Shown in pieces: positions 10,448 to 18,185 of a DNA stretch of 64,000 nucleotides (position 1 is its first letter; every line of letters begins with the position of its first letter). Origin of the DNA: Stappia sp. ES.058 (GTDB lineage: Bacteria > Pseudomonadota > Alphaproteobacteria > Rhizobiales > Stappiaceae); NCBI RefSeq assembly GCF_900105595.1, contig NZ_LT629784.1, positions 1,612,001-1,676,000 on the forward strand, written 5' to 3'. Made by a program: the position numbers and the translations under genes. The notes beneath the pieces were generated by a model, which was given only the letters and a program-made list of their open reading frames with translations, was not told the origin of the DNA and did not search any database.

Positions 10448-11446
10448 TCAGGCGGTCGCGGCGTATTCCTCGTCGGACAAGCCAAGCTTCGAGGCGATGC
10501 TGCGCTGCTGATCGGTGAGCGCGGTCTTGCCGGCCGCCGGGTCCTTGTCGTCGAGATCGGACGGCTTTCCGATCACCGGCAGGGTTCCGACCAGATCCTT
10601 GAAGCGATCAAGGCCGCCCTCCTGGGCGCAAAGGGCGCGGTAGTGCTCGCGCGAAGCCGGGGCGATCTTGCCGCCCTTCACGGCATCCTCGATCGCCGCA
10701 TTCACGTCCGCCTCGCGGATCTTCGCCTGTTCGGCGGCAAGCGCCGTCTCGGCCGTATCGGCGCGGGCGATCGCCTGGTCGTAATCGGCGCGCGGAACGA
10801 AGCGCTCGATGTCCGGCGCACTCGCGGCGGCCGTCGCTGTCTGGTGCTCGGTCTTGAGGCGTTCGACAGCGGCGAGGATGTTGTCGATCGAAGCGCCGGC
10901 ATCAAGGCCGAGCGCGCGGCAAAGGGCTGTGAGGTCCATGGAGGTCTCCGGGAGGTTGGAGGGAGCATCGGGAGAAGCGGGATCTTCGGCGCGCGACAGC
11001 GCTGCCATGCGCAGCGCCGGGCGATTGACCAGGCCGGCACCGGCAATGCGGAGGATTTCGCCGGTCTTGGAATGCAGAAACTCGGGCGACAAAAAGCGGT
11101 ACTCGCGTGCCGCGATCATGGCGGCGGCCTTGTCGGTCCACTCGACCGCGCCCCAAAGCGCACCGTCGCGGATCTCCATCGCGGTGATCCAGCCGGCCGC
11201 CGGCGCGGTTTCGCCTTTCGGCGCGCGGTGCGCCTGGCCGTGTTCATAGTCGATCGGGAGCGGCGCGCCGTTTGCCTTGAAGGCGGCGATCACAGCTTGA
11301 GGATCGGACAGGCGCCAGCGCCGGCCGTCGCGGGCAACCAGCTCCGGCCCTGCGGGCAAGAGCTGCACCCATGCGGGCGCCGCCGAACCGGTGTCGGAGG
11401 CGATGGAGGTTGTCGAAAAAAGGGCGGTTGCGGTTCGCGTCGTCAT
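10448..11446 (-). CDS. Mu-like prophage protease/scaffold (gpI-like)
   Basis: The product is 332 aa from ATG 11446, MTTRTATALFSTTSIASDTG. The N-terminal half carries PLPIDYEHGQ, then APAAGWITAMEIRDGALWGA and YRFLSPEF, the core of the Mu I protease family that matures the capsid. The C-terminal half is helical and Glu/Ala-rich (TAETALAAEQAKIREADVNA), as expected of a scaffold. It is the first gene after the inserted island. A dyad at 11,484-11,498 lies about 37 bp upstream of its start. Confidence 0.9.
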   Translation of the reverse strand: MTTRTATALFSTTSIASDTGSAAPAWVQLLPAGPELVARDGRRWRLSDPQAVIAAFKANGAPLPIDYEHGQAHRAPKGETAPAAGWITAMEIRDGALWGAVEWTDKAAAMIAAREYRFLSPEFLHSKTGEILRIAGAGLVNRPALRMAALSRAEDPASPDAPSNLPETSMDLTALCRALGLDAGASIDNILAAVERLKTEHQTATAAASAPDIERFVPRADYDQAIARADTAETALAAEQAKIREADVNAAIEDAVKGGKIAPASREHYRALCAQEGGLDRFKDLVGTLPVIGKPSDLDDKDPAAGKTALTDQQRSIASKLGLSDEEYAATA

Positions 11447-11871
11447 GGGCGACAACGTGCAGGACGTACCGAACACCCGCGCCCCTGACAGTGTCAGGCG
11501 GAGGGTCGCCAGGTCCGGCGGTCAAATCCGGTCGAAAGCGTCACTTCCCCGCTTCAACATCCGCACGATGCAAACCGCACCCGCGCCCCGGCAACAGCTT
11601 CGCCGTTAAAGGGGGTTTAAAGGGGGTAGGACGTGCGTTTGGGGCGTGTGGCGGGGATTGGAAGGCGAAGTGCGACTGGAAACGCCTCGCGGGTCGGAAG
11701 AGACGGGCCGGCTCAGAATATCGAATATCCGGCGACACCACGTCGCGGGAAGCGATCTGTCGCTGCAAGGGTGAGCGAACGACGCTATTGGGACCGGGAG
11801 CGGGCTGGCAGGTATAGCCGGTTGCCTACGAACAGCGGTCATTCAAAGACGTGATCGAGGTGCAGAAGTCT
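11447..11871. other. Intergenic region between island and head operon
   Basis: About 425 bp without a convincing gene. It holds the dyad at 11,484-11,498, a G-rich direct repeat (taaaggggg twice, about 11,606-11,628) and a tandem heptamer GAATATC at 11,716-11,729. Open frames here have basic, low-complexity translations typical of non-coding GC-rich DNA. It probably contains the left island boundary and a late promoter for the protease operon. Confidence 0.5.
11484..11498. promoter_or_regulatory. Dyad CCTGACA-N-TGTCAGG upstream of head operon
   Basis: A near-perfect palindrome with 7-bp arms around one base lies about 37 bp upstream of the protease start. The same core (CTGACA-N-TGTCAG) occurs at 24,274-24,286 upstream of the lysis operon and is found in no other intergenic region that I inspected. 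Position suggests a binding site for the phage late activator (Mor/C-like). That role is inference. Confidence 0.5.
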
Positions 11872-12207
11872 TCACTCGCACCAGTGAATGCGTCCAGTTC
11901 GGACCCAAAAGTGTGACCTGCAACCTGTGTTGCGCCATACTGAAGGGTGAAGTGTTGGGCGGCCTTGAGCATCGGTGGAAAATGACCACTGGGGCTTGGC
12001 CTCGGGGATAACCATGAGTTCGATGGTTGCACCACACCCGCACGGGCAGCGCATGCCAACGCTCAAATCATCGCCGTCGTCTCGAAGGAGCACAAGGTTC
12101 CGTATTGGAAGGGGGTTCGGGAGGACATCGCTGTCCACTTCGATCAGTCGTCTTGCTGGGCCATGTTGATCCCATAGCCGCCTAAGCCAGGCAATTATCG
12201 GATTCAT
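11872..12207 (-). CDS. DUF6527 family protein, probable zinc-binding partner of the Ubl system
   Basis: The product has 111 aa with a dense set of potential zinc ligands: CPCGCG at residues 54-59, H87 (TLHPSVW), C96 and H99 (GCRSHF), H108 and C110 (IHWC). This pattern matches DUF6527, a small family repeatedly encoded beside multi-ubiquitin and ThiF genes. It overlaps the E1-JAB gene by 4 bp (ATGA at 12,204-12,207), so it is the third gene of that operon. It could be a treble-clef-like E3 or adaptor. That role is inference; the overlap and ligands are seen. Confidence 0.8.
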   Translation of the reverse strand: MNPIIAWLRRLWDQHGPARRLIEVDSDVLPNPLPIRNLVLLRDDGDDLSVGMRCPCGCGATIELMVIPEAKPQWSFSTDAQGRPTLHPSVWRNTGCRSHFWVRTGRIHWCE

Positions 12208-13598
12208 GCGGAGTTCTCCAAATCTACCAACCCGGGCAGGCCGATCAAAGGCTCATGCGCGCCACGACCTAGAAGCGCGTTCTCTGACATCGGGAATGAA
12301 TCTTCGCCGAGGTAACATTCTTCCGGATCTGACAGGCTGAAAGTGGTCCGGGCATAGTCGCGGTTTGGCTCGTGGCGAATGGCGAACGCCCGCGCCAGAA
12401 ACTCGTTTGCAACTGCAGATGCGGCCCGCATGTTAAGCGTGATGACCGAAGGTGTTTCTTCGATCATTCCCTTGATATAACCAGCGGACAATTCGGCGTC
12501 GAAACCCTCTGGATCATGTTGCCGGAGATACTCGGCTCGCAGCCCCTCTTGGGTGTAGACCCCGCGGTCCCCCAGCGTCGCGCCGCCGGGTTGAACATAG
12601 TCGATGCGACCACATACGTCGATGATTTCGACAATGCCGTCATCGTTGTGCGTCGGGATCGTTACACCCACATCGAACAGTGGCAACACAAACGCCGACG
12701 AAATCAGATCGAGAACCTGACGACCTTCCTGACTGTCGACGCAGCTGAACAACACGTCGCATTGACCGGCAGCAATGACGGCATCGCGGTTGTTTATCGC
12801 AGCATTGATCGGCACGGCTACTCCTGTGCCGCGATATGTCTCAATTGCGGAGGCGAAGATATCGACCTTCGGACGGCGAAGTTCTGCGTCTGCCAGGCCC
12901 GAATTCAGGATACGGTTAAGGTTCTTGCGCTCAATGACATCAAAGTCGATCAGGACAATCTTGCCGAAACCAAGACGAGCCAATTGTTCCGCGACGATAG
13001 AGCCGGTGCCTGAAACTCCTACTACGGCTGCAGACATGAATGATAGTTCACGGGTCATCTGGCTGGTGAATGCCATTGATGGTTTATCAAGGCGACCATT
13101 CTTAATTGCGCTATCCCAAAAATATAGGATGTCATCTCCGGAAACGGTTACCAAGTCGACAGGCGTCTTGTTCATCTCAAAATCATAGAGCCTCGCCCGT
13201 ACGGCTCCGTCAGGAGTCATGATGGCCGACCCATGTCGCTTCCCAATAGCGTGAAAGAGGCCAGGGATGACCTTCAAGTCGCTGCTGTCATCAAGAGATG
13301 AAAAGTCCAGCCACCCACCAGGATGGGAATGCAGTAACAAAATAGTGAGTCCTTGCTCCTCCGCTGCGTCGATGGCATCTTCGATGTAGCGGCCAGGCCA
13401 ATTGATAAAATCTGGCAAGCGCTTGCAATCACAGTGCGGAACCAAAATCTCTCGCTGAACGATCAGTCGGTCACGTGGCGCGGGAGAAGCTGAGCAAATC
13501 AATATTGCGGCAGCTTCTTTGCCGTCGCCCGGGAAGAGATGGCGCATGAGAGACGCGTGAGTGACCCCAGCAAATGCGAGTGTCGTCTGCGGCATCAT
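12204..13598 (-). CDS. JAB peptidase - E1-like ThiF adenylyltransferase fusion
   Basis: The product is 464 aa from ATG 13598, overlapping the upstream Ubl gene by 4 bp. The N-terminal JAB/JAMM domain (about 1-150) shows HSHP at 90-93 and S100 and D103, which is the full H-x-H-x7-S-x2-D zinc motif of deubiquitinase-like peptidases. The C-terminal E1/ThiF domain (about 180-410) shows the nucleotide loop GVSGTGS (194-200), the acidic IDFD (217-220) and NLNRI (226-230). The segment after VQPGG (335-339), where ThiF relatives often have a Cys-x2-Cys pair, reads ATLGDRG. C280, C286 and C329 are present, but none is an obvious thioester cysteine. It would adenylate and process the Ubl partner. Fusion of the activating and deconjugating enzymes in one chain is characteristic of some bacterial Ubl operons. 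Confidence 0.88.
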   Translation of the reverse strand: MMPQTTLAFAGVTHASLMRHLFPGDGKEAAAILICSASPAPRDRLIVQREILVPHCDCKRLPDFINWPGRYIEDAIDAAEEQGLTILLLHSHPGGWLDFSSLDDSSDLKVIPGLFHAIGKRHGSAIMTPDGAVRARLYDFEMNKTPVDLVTVSGDDILYFWDSAIKNGRLDKPSMAFTSQMTRELSFMSAAVVGVSGTGSIVAEQLARLGFGKIVLIDFDVIERKNLNRILNSGLADAELRRPKVDIFASAIETYRGTGVAVPINAAINNRDAVIAAGQCDVLFSCVDSQEGRQVLDLISSAFVLPLFDVGVTIPTHNDDGIVEIIDVCGRIDYVQPGGATLGDRGVYTQEGLRAEYLRQHDPEGFDAELSAGYIKGMIEETPSVITLNMRAASAVANEFLARAFAIRHEPNRDYARTTFSLSDPEECYLGEDSFPMSENALLGRGAHEPLIGLPGLVDLENSA

Positions 13599-14701
13599 TG
13601 TCCAACTTCCTTGGCAAATGCCGATTCCACAATCGCCAAGTGGGTGACCACATTGTCGGTTTCCGGGTTCCACTTTGATCCCGGGCCGCGGTGACGTGAC
13701 CAGCGCTGGAAGATGAGGCCGCGGATGGTTTCCGTCGCCTGTGTGGCCGGAATAGTACCACCAGACCTAAGATTGAGGGCAGGGTGGGCATAAAACATGT
13801 CGATCTGGACCTGCGGGTAAGTGGGCAAGATCTGGATCGCTAAAGTGATCGTGAGGACGTTGTAGCCCGGGGGCACAGGAAACTCGTAGATGATGAGCCA
13901 ACGGCCGGCGGAATCAGTCTCCCAACGCAAGCCCAGGCTATCGAGATACTCTACATCGACGGCTTGCAGAGCGAAGTCACGGCGGGGTGCAGGGAGCGCC
14001 TCGCCGTTGTTGACGTCCTTGGCCGTAAGCCGGATCTTTTCGATGCCAGGCGTGGTCAGGTCGATAATGTCGTTGGGCTGAAGCTGACGCTTCGGCTTGC
14101 CCTGGACTTTCAGGATCATGATCCAGGCGTTGGGATCGAAGTTCGCCTGTGCCATGGCGTCCGCCGCCGAGATGTTCGGCAGAGTGGAAATGACGGTCTT
14201 GCCCTGGACATTGAGCTTCCAAACCTTCGGTTTGCGGCTCTTGAATTCCTCGACACCCTTTCCTTTGATCTTGATAACATCCATGTCCTGCACCAGCAGA
14301 TCAGGCTCGTCTTCCCGTTCCAGGTAGATGACTTTATCGGCATCAATCCTGCCCAGCTTGCGAACTACGGCGCCAGAGATGACGTCGGCGGGCCAGTCGA
14401 TGGTCTCGTCATTGATCGTGATGCGGTTGGTGCTGGCGCTCACTGCTACGATGAACTTGTGGCTTTTGTTCAGGTCAGCCTCTTCCTGGACGCGGATGTC
14501 TTCCAGATCACCGTCACGCTGCTGCTGCAGAACATACGCATGCTGGTCAGCATTGAAGCCAGCAACCTTGGCAATCTTTCCGCCGGTCGGTGAGTCTGTC
14601 TCGACGTCGACACGGCGGAAGATAAGGTCCGTCCCGGCGATTTCGATAATGGTGGTATTTTTGCCGTGGCTCAACACGGCGGTGCTTTCTTTTGCGCTCA
14701 T
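13595..14701 (-). CDS. Multi-ubiquitin-like protein with C-terminal E2-like domain
   Basis: The product is 368 aa from ATG 14701, with GAGGGC six bases upstream. Three beta-grasp (Ubl) units are apparent at about 22-88, 92-158 and 160-227. Each has the strand-turn-helix pattern and ends in a D-I/D-V-I strand (for example DMDVIKIKG, PNDIIDLTT). Residues about 230-368 fit the bacterial E2-like family linked to multi-ubiquitin proteins: LGLRWETD, VPPGYNVLTI, LPTYPQVQIDMFY, FQRWSRHR, KWNPETDN. The whole protein contains no cysteine, so no canonical E2 thioester can form. No Ubl unit ends at a free C-terminal Gly-Gly. The longer start inside the inverted repeat is rejected. Confidence 0.85.
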   Translation of the reverse strand: MSAKESTAVLSHGKNTTIIEIAGTDLIFRRVDVETDSPTGGKIAKVAGFNADQHAYVLQQQRDGDLEDIRVQEEADLNKSHKFIVAVSASTNRITINDETIDWPADVISGAVVRKLGRIDADKVIYLEREDEPDLLVQDMDVIKIKGKGVEEFKSRKPKVWKLNVQGKTVISTLPNISAADAMAQANFDPNAWIMILKVQGKPKRQLQPNDIIDLTTPGIEKIRLTAKDVNNGEALPAPRRDFALQAVDVEYLDSLGLRWETDSAGRWLIIYEFPVPPGYNVLTITLAIQILPTYPQVQIDMFYAHPALNLRSGGTIPATQATETIRGLIFQRWSRHRGPGSKWNPETDNVVTHLAIVESAFAKEVGQ

Positions 14702-14750
14702 TTTTAAGCCCTCATAGTTGGTTTTCGACGGCGGACCGTCCCTATGATGG

Positions 14751-14815
14751 TTGCGCTCGAGGCTCAGCATTCCGACAAGAAAAAAATGTGTCGGAATGCT
14801 GAGCCTCGAGCGCAA
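14751..14815. repeat. Perfect 27-bp inverted repeat between the divergent island operons
   Basis: The left arm is 14,751-14,777 (starting TTGCGCTCGAGGCTCAGC). The right arm is 14,789-14,815 and is its exact reverse complement. The 11-base spacer is A-rich. Pairing stops at the bases just outside. It lies 50 bp upstream of the multi-Ubl start and 80 bp upstream of the preferred sigma-like start. It could be an operator for the divergent promoters, a hairpin in either leader, or the footprint of a small mobile element. Both strands through it read as a spurious ...MLSLERN..., which explains the false N-terminal extensions of both genes. Confidence 0.9.
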
Positions 14816-14894
14816 CAAAATCGAAGGCCGAGAGGTGGAAAAATGGGAACGCTATAGGCAAGATACGATTTTGCCAGATTCTACGGAGAGCTCT

Positions 14895-15485
14895 GTGGAC
14901 CAAGCTCCAAATTGTTTCAGTGCTGGCGATGCCCGCGAGGCATTCCAGATGCTTACTGATCGCGACCGGGTAAATTTGGCGCGTGTTGCCGATTTTTTGG
15001 CGGGCAAAGACAATCTTGCGTCGGCTGATGAACTGATAAACGAAGCGTACGTCAGGATTTCAACTGGACAGCGACGTTGGAAGCGGACAAAGACATTTCC
15101 GCAGTTTTTTGCGGGCGTCCTGCGAAGTCTGGCCAGTGACAATGCGTTTCTGTCCGACGTTAGAAAGGTCAACAACCTTCACGGTGGCTATGCTGCGTTG
15201 GATGGTGATGACACACTTGCCGTGGAAGCAGTCGATAACTCGATCGAGCTTAAGCAAAAGGCATTGGTTGAGGAGATGTATGCCCATCTTGAGCAGCACT
15301 TCGCCGGCGACAGCGAAATGCAGATGCTGTTAATGGGGGTACAGGACGCGCTCCGTGGCGAAGACCTTAAACGGACCATTGGTGTAGATACCAAGAGGCT
15401 GGCAGCGCTTCGGACAAGATTTAACCGAGAGATAGATAAATTTATCGCTGGGTATCGCGCGAGGGAAGGACAGTCCCATGGCTGA
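14895..15485 (+). CDS. Sigma-factor-like (ECF-type) DNA-binding protein
   Basis: The product is 196 aa from GTG 14895, with GGAG six bases upstream. Earlier starts at 14,751 and 14,796 lie in the inverted repeat. The segment NLARVADFLAGKDNLASADE followed by LINEAYVRISTG and FPQFFAGVLRSLASD resembles sigma-70 region 2. The C-terminal EDLKRTIGVDTKRLAALRTR looks like a region-4 helix-turn-helix. It is co-transcribed with the 122-aa and ImmA/IrrE genes (8-bp overlap). Likely role: promoter-specific activator of the island. It could also be a degenerate sigma acting as a repressor. Confidence 0.68.
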   Translation: MDQAPNCFSAGDAREAFQMLTDRDRVNLARVADFLAGKDNLASADELINEAYVRISTGQRRWKRTKTFPQFFAGVLRSLASDNAFLSDVRKVNNLHGGYAALDGDDTLAVEAVDNSIELKQKALVEEMYAHLEQHFAGDSEMQMLLMGVQDALRGEDLKRTIGVDTKRLAALRTRFNREIDKFIAGYRAREGQSHG

Positions 15486-15846
15486 CCAAAATAAGGATAT
15501 GGTGGATAACCTCATTGAGTTCATTCTGGCCGATGAGGGCCCTGTGCTGGCTGAAGACCAGCCGCTTTTGCAGTTGTTCAACGATGCCATCGCCAACGGG
15601 GAGCAAAAGCTGGCGCGTGAGCGGCTGCAACGGGCCAAGGCTGGTGCAGCCGCAGCGCAGCCGTTGACAGCGACAGTTGTTGATCTTGAAAATGCTCGTC
15701 AGTTGCTGGTTCGTGCAAAGTCCGGCGACACTTCTGCACAGATCACTCTTGCTGCCCGATTTGGCGATGGGACTATCGACGCGGATTTGGACGCCATAGC
15801 GGAAGATATTGCAGAGCTGGAGGCCGATCTCCGTGAAGAGGATTGA
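15478..15846 (+). CDS. Acidic 122-aa protein between sigma-like and ImmA genes
   Basis: The protein begins MADQNKDMVDNLIEFILADE and ends in a strongly acidic helix (DLDAIAEDIAELEADLREED). No helix-turn-helix, signal peptide or membrane segment is visible. A GGAAGGA site precedes the ATG. The start overlaps the sigma-like gene by 8 bp and the end overlaps the ImmA start by 14 bp, so translation is coupled. The position suggests an anti-sigma or regulatory substrate that the metalloprotease could cleave. I do not recognise a family, and this role is inference. Confidence 0.7.
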   Translation: MADQNKDMVDNLIEFILADEGPVLAEDQPLLQLFNDAIANGEQKLARERLQRAKAGAAAAQPLTATVVDLENARQLLVRAKSGDTSAQITLAARFGDGTIDADLDAIAEDIAELEADLREED

Positions 15847-16624
15847 TCCGCTACCAACCAACCTCAAGCCAGATGCTCTGCTCAAATCACTCGGGATATG
15901 CCGTCCGGAGGACATTGATGTCGAGGCTATAGCCTACTTCGCCGGCCTGAAGATCAAGCGTCGCCATCTCAAGAGTTGCGAGGCCATGATTACAGGCATG
16001 GGCGATCGCGGCATCATCTCGGTTCTTCCTGATTCAATGCCGGCTCGGGCTAGGTTCTCCATCGCTCATGAGTTGGGTCACTGGGCGCAACATCGCGGGC
16101 AGACCATAGCGTGTCGATCTACTGATATCGGGAAATTCTCGAAGACCAATAACGTTGAACGAGCCGCCGACCAGTATGCTGCGGATCTTCTGATGCCCTG
16201 GTCGCTTTTCAGAGAGGTCTGCAAACAGCATCACAAGTTGGACCTCAAAGCATTGAAGGCAATTGCAGGCGTATTTCAATGCAGTCTTACGGCCACATTG
16301 ATCCGAGTGATTGACAGTGATCGATATCCAAACCTCATGATGATCCACCATCACGTCAGTGCCGGGCGCAAGTGGTTCAGGGCAGCGAAGAATATCCCTG
16401 GTTTCTGGTTCCCGCGAGATGAGCTGGACGCCGAGAGTTTCGCCTTCGAACTTCTGCACAACCCCCAAGCCCGCGATGAAGGGTTTCCCCGGAAAATAGG
16501 TGCCGACGCTTGGTTCAATACCAAAGGCGCTGATCGTTATGAAATCACCGAGCAGTCGTTTCGGGTGTCTGGGGAAGGTGTGGTGACCATTCTGAAGCTG
16601 CATGAAGCTATGATCGGATATTGA
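15833..16624 (+). CDS. ImmA/IrrE family metallo-endopeptidase
   Basis: The product is 263 aa from GTG 15833, with GGAGG eight bases upstream. The zinc motif HELGH (79-83) sits in RFSIAHELGHW, and the third ligand is probably E109 in NNVERAADQYAADLLMP, which is the standard ImmA/IrrE (M78) pattern. The C-terminal domain of about 140 aa is of unknown fold and could sense a signal. Relatives cleave HTH repressors (ImmA on ImmR, IrrE on DdrO). Here no HTH repressor is adjacent, so the sigma-like or the 122-aa protein is the natural candidate substrate. Confidence 0.85.
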   Translation: MKRIDPLPTNLKPDALLKSLGICRPEDIDVEAIAYFAGLKIKRRHLKSCEAMITGMGDRGIISVLPDSMPARARFSIAHELGHWAQHRGQTIACRSTDIGKFSKTNNVERAADQYAADLLMPWSLFREVCKQHHKLDLKALKAIAGVFQCSLTATLIRVIDSDRYPNLMMIHHHVSAGRKWFRAAKNIPGFWFPRDELDAESFAFELLHNPQARDEGFPRKIGADAWFNTKGADRYEITEQSFRVSGEGVVTILKLHEAMIGY

Positions 16625-16919
16625 CGCGTATTTGAATTTTTTCTGTACATGCAGAATTTTAAGGGCAAAGCACTGCTGCGTATGGTGGGCTGCTCGAACG
16701 TCAGCTATTGGGAGTTGCCTGGAGGCCACTGAATTACCGAAATGGGGCACGAATCAGACGTAATTCTGGTGGCCGCCGAACGATCGTTAATCTACCTTTG
16801 AGTTTTTAAACTTCATCGACACCTGTATACTCTGGCTCGCACACGGGCAAATCAAGCCTTCGGGCGCGCTCGGCCACCTGTGTTGGCGAAGGGTTTGCGA
16901 CCTTCTGCCCGTGTGCCCT
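16625..16919. other. Intergenic region after gpF with a long inverted repeat
   Basis: About 295 bp, A/T-rich in its left part, with no convincing gene. An 11-bp inverted repeat (GCACACGGGCA at 16,839-16,849; complement at 16,906-16,916) encloses 56 bp and ends 4 bp from the gpF stop codon. Read leftward it would form a stem at the 3' end of the gpF transcript. It may terminate the phage operon before the island or mark the island boundary. No run of T follows it, so an intrinsic terminator is not certain. Confidence 0.5.
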
Positions 16920-18185
16920 TCACTCCACATCCGTTCCGGGTTGCTTGTCGAAATACCGCGCCTTGCGGCGCGGTCGGAACAACGTGCGCATGCGCCAGTT
17001 CCGGCCGAGGGGATCCAGCACCATGAACAGGCCGGTCTCCGGATCGAAGGCGCGTATGGTGCCGGCGAGGTCGCGGCGCAGCCGTGCGCGTTTCAGGATG
17101 TCGCCGAAGTCCGGCCAGGCGGAGACATCGACCACCCGCCTGTGATCGGCCGCATGGCCGATGGTCGCCGCGTCGATCATAACGGGCAGATAGTCGTCTC
17201 CGAAGCGCCCAGGTGCCACCGCCACCGGAAAACGTGTTAGGGCGAAGCCGTGCTCGCCATTTAGCCGCGCCGCAATATCGCGGCCAGACAGCCCTTCCGC
17301 CTTGAGCGCCGGCACCCGTGCGGCGCGCTTCAGGCCGACGTCGATCGCGTCCTGGACGAAGACCTTGAACGCTGGCGACGCGGTGAAGTCGGCAATCGCC
17401 GCGCGCCGTGTCGGCGTGGGCAACTCCCCAAGCCGACCGGACAGCAGCTCGGCGACGTTCTGCCCGCGCGTCTTGCCGGGGTTGGTGTCCCAGCCCGGAT
17501 CGATGCCGACTGGCACATTCACCGTCTGACCCGTGCGCTTGTTTCGCCAGGGCCGCATGACGATCTGCGGGCCGCCGTCTTCCGGGTCGTAGCCGAGGCG
17601 TTCGGCTTCGCGTCTTGAGATCTGGCGCACGCCGCATTTGCAGCCCCAGCCGTTCGGCGGATAGTGCGTCTCCCAGAACGGATGATCGACGGGCAGGATG
17701 ATGCCGACCCAGCTGCGGTGTTCGGGCCGGCGCCGTTCGGCGAGCGACAGCGTGTAGACCAGGTACGGCAGGAAGCGTTTCGTGCGCTGGGTCCGCTCCC
17801 ATTCGCCGGCGGCATGGGCGGTGCGGATGTTCGCCCAATAGATCGTGCGCAGCCGGCGCGGGCTGCCGAGCTGTACGATCTTGGAGACGCCGTCAGCCGG
17901 GTCTTTCGCGATGCGCTTGCCCCACCATCCTTTCGCCTGCAGGGTCGGCGTCAGCCGCGCCTTGAAGTCCTCGAAGGGCACGCGGTTGACGATGGCGTCA
18001 TCAACGGCCTTGCGCAGATCGTCGAGCACATCGAAGCCGGCGGTCTTCGCCGCCGTGAAGGCATAGGCATGTTCGCGCGGGGCGATGTCGCGCCAATCGA
18101 AGGTCGGCCGCGATCCCTTTTCGCGGAAATAGCGCGTGACCTCCGGCGAGGCGGTCAGGAACTGCTCGGGCAGATCAGCCGGCAT
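16920..18185 (-). CDS. Phage minor head protein (Mu gpF / SPP1 gp7 family) with C-terminal extension
   Basis: The product has 421 aa beginning MPADLPEQFLTASPEVTRYF. It contains the head-morphogenesis core: NIRTAHAAGEWERTQRTKRF, the HPFWETHYPPNGWGCKCGVR block (the W-x-C-x-C segment typical of gpF), and ISRREAERLG. Residues about 290-421, ending VLDPLGRNWRMRTLFRPRRK, look like one of the BECR-fold phage-associated nuclease-type domains often fused to gpF proteins. That last assignment is from memory of the family and is uncertain. It overlaps the portal stop by 11 bp. The island follows immediately downstream. Confidence 0.88.
   Translation of the reverse strand: MPADLPEQFLTASPEVTRYFREKGSRPTFDWRDIAPREHAYAFTAAKTAGFDVLDDLRKAVDDAIVNRVPFEDFKARLTPTLQAKGWWGKRIAKDPADGVSKIVQLGSPRRLRTIYWANIRTAHAAGEWERTQRTKRFLPYLVYTLSLAERRRPEHRSWVGIILPVDHPFWETHYPPNGWGCKCGVRQISRREAERLGYDPEDGGPQIVMRPWRNKRTGQTVNVPVGIDPGWDTNPGKTRGQNVAELLSGRLGELPTPTRRAAIADFTASPAFKVFVQDAIDVGLKRAARVPALKAEGLSGRDIAARLNGEHGFALTRFPVAVAPGRFGDDYLPVMIDAATIGHAADHRRVVDVSAWPDFGDILKRARLRRDLAGTIRAFDPETGLFMVLDPLGRNWRMRTLFRPRRKARYFDKQPGTDVE

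Follow-up and report, generated by a model that had tools for sequence, protein, structure and literature searches.

A sigma factor, p122 and CapP cassette that probably switches on a prophage-borne Bub operon and other immune operons

A Mu-like prophage of Stappia sp. ES.058 carries a Bub operon, encoding a bacterial ubiquitination-like system, back to back with an operon for a diverged sigma factor, a small acidic protein (p122) and a CapP-type protease. The block lies in a 64,000-nucleotide (nt) stretch of contig NZ_LT629784.1 (positions 1,612,001 to 1,676,000), hereafter the window. All six open reading frames (ORFs) are present and intact. A preliminary description had placed a leftward operon of multi-ubiquitin-like (multi-Ubl)/E2-like, JAB-E1 fusion and DUF6527 genes in a Mu-like prophage, facing rightward genes for a sigma-like protein, a 122-amino-acid (aa) acidic protein and an ImmA/IrrE protease, and this layout holds. 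PHROGs profiles identify a head protease, major and minor head proteins, portal, terminase large subunit, baseplate, transposase and transposition proteins; Pfam recovers the leftward domains and the protease (Peptidase_M78, 3e-14), while the sigma match is sub-threshold in NCBIfam. Homology corrects two starts, the sigma protein beginning at GTG 14895 (196 aa, originally a 244-aa ORF) and CapP at GTG 15833. The divergent region holds a perfect 28-bp inverted repeat (arms 14750-14777 and 14789-14816); read through both ways, this repeat accounts for how far the multi-Ubl and sigma ORFs extend upstream, and the extensions are not protein. Between the window and its Devosia orthologues (locus L011), the ratio of nonsynonymous to synonymous differences (pN/pS) is 0.10-0.28 across all six genes, a protein-level constraint by which the genes look functional and which speaks against pseudogenes; proof that the Ubl genes were such would have refuted the preliminary description. 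Together with the Pfam matches and conserved six-gene loci, these ratios reject chance or an ORF artefact.

The leftward genes belong to the Bub family. The JAB-E1 protein matches solved Citrobacter BubCD (PDB 9ea4) with a phmmer E-value of 5.1e-145 and residues 11-458 of 463 aligned; its single chain combines ThiF (1.5e-19) and Prok-JAB (1.2e-6) domains, and a JAMM-type HSHPGG...SSLDD motif and a GVSGTGS loop can be read directly in it. The multi-Ubl protein likewise carries Multi_ubiq (4e-19) and Prok-E2_E (5.2e-34) on one chain and matches both 9d59 (1.7e-51) and BubB (9eav_D, 5.5e-33) within one ORF. These structure matches to BubCD, BubA and BubB identify a Bub operon, predicted from sequence to conjugate protein. 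The preliminary description had recognised known Ubl families and knew of no established function for the exact six-gene combination; the family of this operon has a name, Bub. Excerpts of PMC13373217 describe protection against phage by Bub operons as so far not shown. Cysteine is absent from the whole BubA-BubB protein of the window, as from those of 5 of 13 other Bub loci compared, and RWSRH is kept in 14/14 aligned Bub loci. Solved BubA chains end in ...VNNG, possibly mere construct ends, precisely where the fusion goes on with GEALPAPRRDF-type sequence. The arrangement suggests that the JAB domain may cut the fusion at the VNNG boundary, freeing the Ubl.

The rightward genes encode a sigma-like protein, a putative anti-sigma factor and a protease. 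Pfam finds no domain on the sigma-like protein or on p122, and NCBIfam sigma matches to the 244-aa ORF are all sub-threshold (best 7.1e-5); sigma regions 2 and 4 are both predicted, with weak scores and a consistent identity. p122, whose homologues were counted at E<=0.001, has five predicted helices and the TLAAR motif throughout its family alignment, and its predicted fold (predicted template-modelling score low, 0.39) gave no Foldseek match at E<=0.001 and no known anti-sigma fold. The best PDB matches of p122, a sensory rhodopsin transducer (0.047) and, with an alignment, CnrR (0.048), were taken as chance. We also rejected p122 as a CapH homologue. The PADLOC capH profile scores only 0.0025 on p122 and reaches E<=1 in 6/10 p122 members; it is unspecific, because it matches almost everywhere (14/14 control genomes, 218/249 genomes), and the p122 motif is absent by eye from legible CapH-type proteins (e.g. 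L111, L115, L117, L119). CapP is identified by PADLOC capP (9.5e-59) and by the solved CapP 7t5t (4.9e-9), and HExxH is retained in all 37 triad loci described below. Database names can mislead: among P0002, P0015 and P0066, two homologues of the sigma protein bear the name "transposase" and one of p122 bears "pantothenate synthetase".

Table 1. Features of the block, with positions in the window.
Feature	Position	Strand	Evidence
Third Bub operon gene, for a DUF6527 protein of 111 aa with a CPCGCG motif	11872..12207	-	Pfam PF20137 1.5e-25; L011-L016, L019 and L083 have an orthologue at this position
BubCD, JAB peptidase-E1 (ThiF) fusion, 463 aa	12204..13595	-	Pfam; phmmer vs PDB 9ea4; motifs
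BubA-BubB fusion, multi-ubiquitin-like and E2-like domains, 368 aa	13595..14701	-	Pfam Multi_ubiq, Prok-E2_E; 9d59, 9eav_D
Leftward promoter-like site for the Bub operon, TGTCGGAAT-N12-GCGCA	14752..14777	-	arm of the perfect 28-bp inverted repeat
Rightward promoter-like site for the regulatory operon, TGTCGGAAT-N12-GCGCA	14789..14814	+	opposite arm of the same repeat
Diverged ECF-like sigma factor, 196 aa, GTG start by homology	14895..15485	+	
p122, acidic all-helical, putative anti-sigma factor and putative CapP substrate	15478..15846	+	398 homologues; invariant TLAAR; predicted helices
CapP-type ImmA/IrrE (M78) zinc metallopeptidase, HELGH	15833..16624	+	PADLOC capP; PDB 7t5t; HExxH
Variable cargo site enclosing the whole block	11477..16919	.	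related prophages with 359-382 nt or other cargo

The sigma, p122 and CapP genes form a conserved operon, divergent from several kinds of immune operon. Scanning 84,980 species genomes with the sigma alignment gave seven loci. A tblastn search of plasmids with the L020 CapP returned 47 records: 19 were analysed, L019 and L020 were already in the set, and the other 26 were left out as near-duplicates, low-scoring rows or unlisted. Among the 47, the record of Cereibacter sphaeroides 2.4.1 (hit H8, plasmid NZ_CP030276.1) has CapP match scores equal to those of strain CH10, in which the triad faces a CBASS operon. The sigma, small-protein and CapP genes lie in a row in 19/19 of the plasmid records analysed; p122 and CapP are fragmented in L064, and the middle protein of L069 is missed by the p122 profile but has a similar tail. 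Within the order, a sigma profile hit 12 of the 397 genomes searched, eight of them with triads and four (L089, L091-L093) without. Searching 385 genomes of the class with a CapP profile added the triad L082; matches beyond G000 and G383 (51 of 53 genomes, at most six candidates scored in each) were weaker or broken, and L097-L099, the only ones widely examined, hold no triad. The resulting set comprises 37 loci, of which L064 and L066 are near-copies, and includes many triads on plasmids. Its hosts are alpha-, beta- and gammaproteobacteria, with plasmid and chromosomal loci and at least one prophage, that of the window.

The triads face Bub operons in 14 loci, CBASS in nine, Pycsar in two, a Bil-like operon in one, a beta-protein gene in one, small genes only in nine and no clear partner in one (L080). 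Adjacency to Ubl operons is thus recurrent, not consistently absent as would have refuted the preliminary description, and all six genes recur in the same order and orientation in eight further genomes or plasmids (L011-L016 from the genome scan, plasmid L019 and genome locus L083). BubCD of L069 looks truncated. Of two distant triads, that of L017 faces a CBASS operon of cyclase, E2 and patatin genes, and that of L020 a Pycsar operon of PycC, an E2-type protein and PycTIR. The Bil-like partner of L082 matches PADLOC BilC (9.4e-16) and BilD (8.6e-18), and the beta protein of L067 is recognised by Pfam (2.1e-33) and as a PADLOC family. CBASS partners were named from PADLOC/Pfam for L017 and L085, record annotation for L064-L066, L071, L074 and L081, and BLASTP for L090. 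Record annotation and domain searches place the genes opposite the nine small-gene triads (L063, L068, L073, L075, L078, L079, L084, L086, L087) in 93-aa, DUF2188 or DUF3892 types. The 93-aa type also stands beside CBASS in L064 and L066, and a gene of DUF2188 type accompanies the Pycsar operon of L088 and the CBASS operon of L090. A role in immunity or stress that has so far gone unrecognised is possible for these small genes, comparable to the YegP-type gene reported next to CapK+CapS.

A pair of outward-facing promoter-like sites, one per direction, lies between triad and partner. Each site joins a -35-like TGTCSGA to a -10-like GCATA or GCGCAA. The eight six-gene loci share a conserved part resembling TGTCGGAAT-N12-GCGCA on both strands around an A-rich gap, and the consensus over the 37 triads is TGTCSGAAW-N12/13-nnGCATA, with 16-17 nt between TGTCSGA and GCATA. 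We scanned each whole 9-21 kb locus with a matrix from whose training the locus's own sigma cluster had been removed. The divergent pair just upstream of the sigma gene scored best within its entire locus in 34/37 loci (barely in L071) and was among the top three in 37/37, ranking second or third in L013, L069 and L072; the window's own margin was small (pair score 17.9 versus 16.7). With the full matrix, 36/37 triads scored at least 20, compared with 18 of about 2,407 other sequence windows and none of 15 capH-profile loci (14 distinct, L109 lying inside L121; most only 2-3.3 kb long). Two clear sites are present in 33 loci (66 sites), and L017, L070, L072 and L090 fall short of two at the threshold applied; L017 has both sites, farther apart than the limit used (45 nt by position).

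The two sites of a locus vary together. Left and right spacings agree in 30/33 loci, which shuffled pairs equal in 1.35% of draws (one locus per cluster), and left and right sites are identical at 14.4 of 17 positions versus 11.3 (standard deviation 0.4) for shuffled partners, with 0/2,000 draws as high. The two blocks of a site are separated by 12 or 13 nt in 66/66 sites (search range 11-15), and the gap between the two sites runs from 1 to 29 nt. This combination of rigid within-site spacing and variable gap points to two promoters of one locus-specific sigma factor, not one dimer operator. That the sigma factor reads both sites is well supported by these comparisons. No further copy of the window's 28-bp repeat occurs in the genome at <=3 mismatches, only the two known arms, which rejects a mobile element. 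Nor does the host genome support a wider sigma regulon: a scan for the site pattern at <=1 mismatch gave seven matches, three exact, two of which are the known sites, and four with one mismatch, and the reversed-pattern control gave two. The third exact copy (G000:C1:1315400-1315425, or L122:5401-5426) points towards the end of an opposing gene and is possibly chance.

The same sites could be read by a repressor. The sigma-like protein would then no longer act as a sigma factor but bind a symmetric operator with p122 as co-repressor, and CapP would cleave one of the two, derepressing both operons in the manner of CapH+CapP. In 21/33 loci the sites form an inverted repeat whose 10-14 nt gap would suit a dimeric repressor too, CapH+CapP and CapK+CapS are repressor systems in excerpts of PMC13373217, and Pfam detects no sigma domain. 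We nevertheless consider a repressor improbable. Each half is itself two-block, at 12/13 nt in every site and with 16-17 nt between cores like -35 and -10 elements; the half-to-half gap varies over 1-29 nt (45 in L017), whereas a dimer operator should show the opposite pattern; and both sigma regions are predicted.

Partner identity bears on a further alternative, in which CapP and p122, or the whole triad, form a toxin-antitoxin or abortive-infection module that sits near defence genes by chance, its sites serving ordinary autoregulation. The PDB labels CapP entry 7t5t a toxin, many triads are plasmid-borne, and L080 lacks a clear partner. We give this account little credence: triad and partner lie divergently and share promoter sites that co-vary, which goes beyond mere proximity; recognised immune-type operons (Bub, CBASS, Pycsar, Bil-like) stand opposite 26/37 triads; and other known controllers occupy the same slot beside Bub. 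The divergent position holds a helix-turn-helix (HTH) protein and an M78 peptidase (PADLOC capP, 2.2e-12) in Bub locus L094 and a WYL protein in L096; the Bub locus L095 lies on a short contig.

The triad is a cassette that has swapped partners repeatedly. On a CapP tree of 36 rows, some on long branches, the seven partner labels need 12 changes, and well-supported branches force at least two changes for Bub and at least five for CBASS. Nor is the triad obligatory for Bub, since the Bub loci of three genomes, found through the E2 family (L094-L096) in a search that also gave a fourth, weak match (G220), lack it. The proposal of one six-gene Ubl system stands insofar as the six genes do recur together in eight further loci, but because the triad also occurs beside CBASS, Pycsar and Bil-like operons, the block is better read as a Bub operon plus a separable transcription switch. 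An integrated ubiquitin-like defence system, with sigma, p122 and CapP as parts such as Bub substrates or effectors, would suit the six-gene set conserved in nine loci including the window, but is very unlikely when the same triad sits beside these other operons and Bub operons also occur with other regulators (L094, L096).

The best explanation, to which we assign a probability of roughly 0.6, is a Bub operon joined to a separable, self-amplifying on-switch of sigma, p122 and CapP. A strongly supported step is that the sigma factor recognises a locus-specific two-block promoter and, because that promoter is present once per direction, drives both the immune operon and its own. In quiet cells, p122 would bind and hold the sigma factor; its gene order, small size and presence in every triad suggest an anti-sigma factor. 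p122 would also be the substrate of CapP. CapP relatives are activated by single-stranded DNA (ssDNA) and cleave CapH (excerpts of PMC13373217 and PMC10904395), and by analogy with CapH+CapP and PprI in these excerpts, ssDNA from phage replication or DNA damage would activate CapP. Activated CapP would cleave p122, a step modelled on CapH+CapP with the cut predicted at or close to the invariant TLAAR, and free the sigma factor, after which positive feedback would raise all proteins of both operons. As a consequence, Bub conjugation would be induced under DNA stress only.

In the prophage the block sits as a moron within a variable cargo site and probably benefits the lysogen. The six genes are flanked by a Mu I-like head gene (10448-11476) and a Mu F-like one (16920-18185), a setting that supports the moron position suggested earlier. 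A search with the Mu I protein gave 16 viral loci, of which 14 have both the Mu I and the Mu F gene, one being the window's own prophage; one IMG/VR contig is identical to the window in all proteins compared (L003, L018, L123). Related prophages hold differing content between these genes. In L124, whose head genes are 92-98% identical to the window's, the site holds a KAP-NTPase gene and two other genes, and in L126 a DUF6680 gene and other ORFs; only 359-382 nt separate Mu I and Mu F in L125, L127 and L134, and 554-1,641 nt lie between the matched parts of the two genes in the remaining eight viral loci. Cargo in this interval of the phage head operon is therefore exchangeable, and the site looks like a phage cargo hotspot that may hold unknown defence genes. 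The KAP-family NTPase of the L124 site (L124:4515-9593) has 1176 aa. The module is not bound to this phage: the window's five Mu head and packaging proteins have no match in the 37 other loci searched (L011-L017, L019, L020, L063-L090), and phage carriage of the six-gene module seems special to the window.

Bub and CapP are already known; what is new lies in an activator-based controller of immune operons. The triad probably turns on adjacent immune operons by a mechanism that we did not find described for such operons. We found no description of the cassette in the open-licence PubMed Central literature, a search outside which the primary CapP and Bub papers fall; those papers, or the comparative genomics of Burroughs and Aravind, may mention the triad. 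Control by an activator in response to DNA damage has a precedent in SiwR, a WYL transcriptional activator answering genotoxic stress (excerpts of PMC10693628), and this weighs against novelty. We put at about even odds a broader claim, that the cassette is a fourth family of immune-operon controllers, one that works by activation: a dedicated cytoplasmic ECF-like sigma factor, a soluble p122 anti-sigma and an ssDNA-triggered CapP that destroys p122. Under this claim the cassette would move between operons of the Bub, CBASS, Pycsar and Bil-like kinds, with a private promoter dialect for each cassette.

Such a switch would address how costly immune operons are held off and then switched on. The three Cap controllers in the excerpts of PMC13373217 act via repressors, so self-amplifying control by a sigma factor with orthogonal promoters would follow a different logic. 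If the reading is true, private promoter dialects would insulate neighbouring immune operons from one another, and the small genes driven by triads elsewhere would be unrecognised immune genes. The consensus site in both directions offers a promoter signature for finding further immune operons, the poorly understood Bub family gains a predicted inducing signal, and a phage head operon is shown with an exchangeable cargo site.

The window's operon resembles the Citrobacter Bub operons (9ea4, 9eav, 9d59) in its JAB-E1 fusion, multi-Ubl protein and E2-like protein. It differs in fusing BubA and BubB, which are separate chains in the solved Citrobacter proteins, in adding a DUF6527 gene after BubCD, and in its controller, a sigma triad instead of CapW, CapH+CapP or CapK+CapS. 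In the excerpts of PMC13373217, 219 of 544 Bub operons come with CapW or CapH+CapP and 59 with CapK+CapS, all DNA-damage-responsive regulators working through repressors, and a sigma-based Bub controller is not mentioned.

The triad shares with CapH+CapP a CapP-type protease, encoded last in a control operon that adjoins an immune operon. Where the CapH HTH repressor would be expected, it has a sigma-like and an acidic helical protein, in neither of which Pfam finds an HTH, and paired promoter-like sites at score 20 mark the triads and not the capH-profile loci (36/37 versus 0/15). The window's host also has a CBASS cyclase (PADLOC, 1.8e-112; L121:3832-8107, G000:C1 near 3,904,000-3,908,000), which adjoins an HTH protein (capH profile, 5.8e-30) and a CapP (8.7e-67) and, by reading, has E2-like and patatin-like neighbours. 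With this HTH+CapP pair besides the window's triad, one host cell has two different CapP-based controllers.

Extracytoplasmic function (ECF) sigma/anti-sigma pairs such as SigE/RseA are switched on by proteolysis of the anti-sigma factor. The triad resembles them in a sigma gene directly followed by a small partner gene, in the two-block promoter-like site that precedes this operon and in the proteolytic release proposed here. It differs in that the low-scoring predicted model of p122 shows no known anti-sigma fold and in that the protease is an M78/CapP enzyme from the same operon. CapK+CapS and CapW/BrxR, finally, serve in the excerpts of PMC13373217 as portable controllers for several kinds of operon, Bub and CBASS among them, as the triad appears to do. 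Pfam detects no WYL regulator, GHKL kinase or STAS-wHTH among the six window genes, and the switch of the window differs from both controllers in being read as activator-based.

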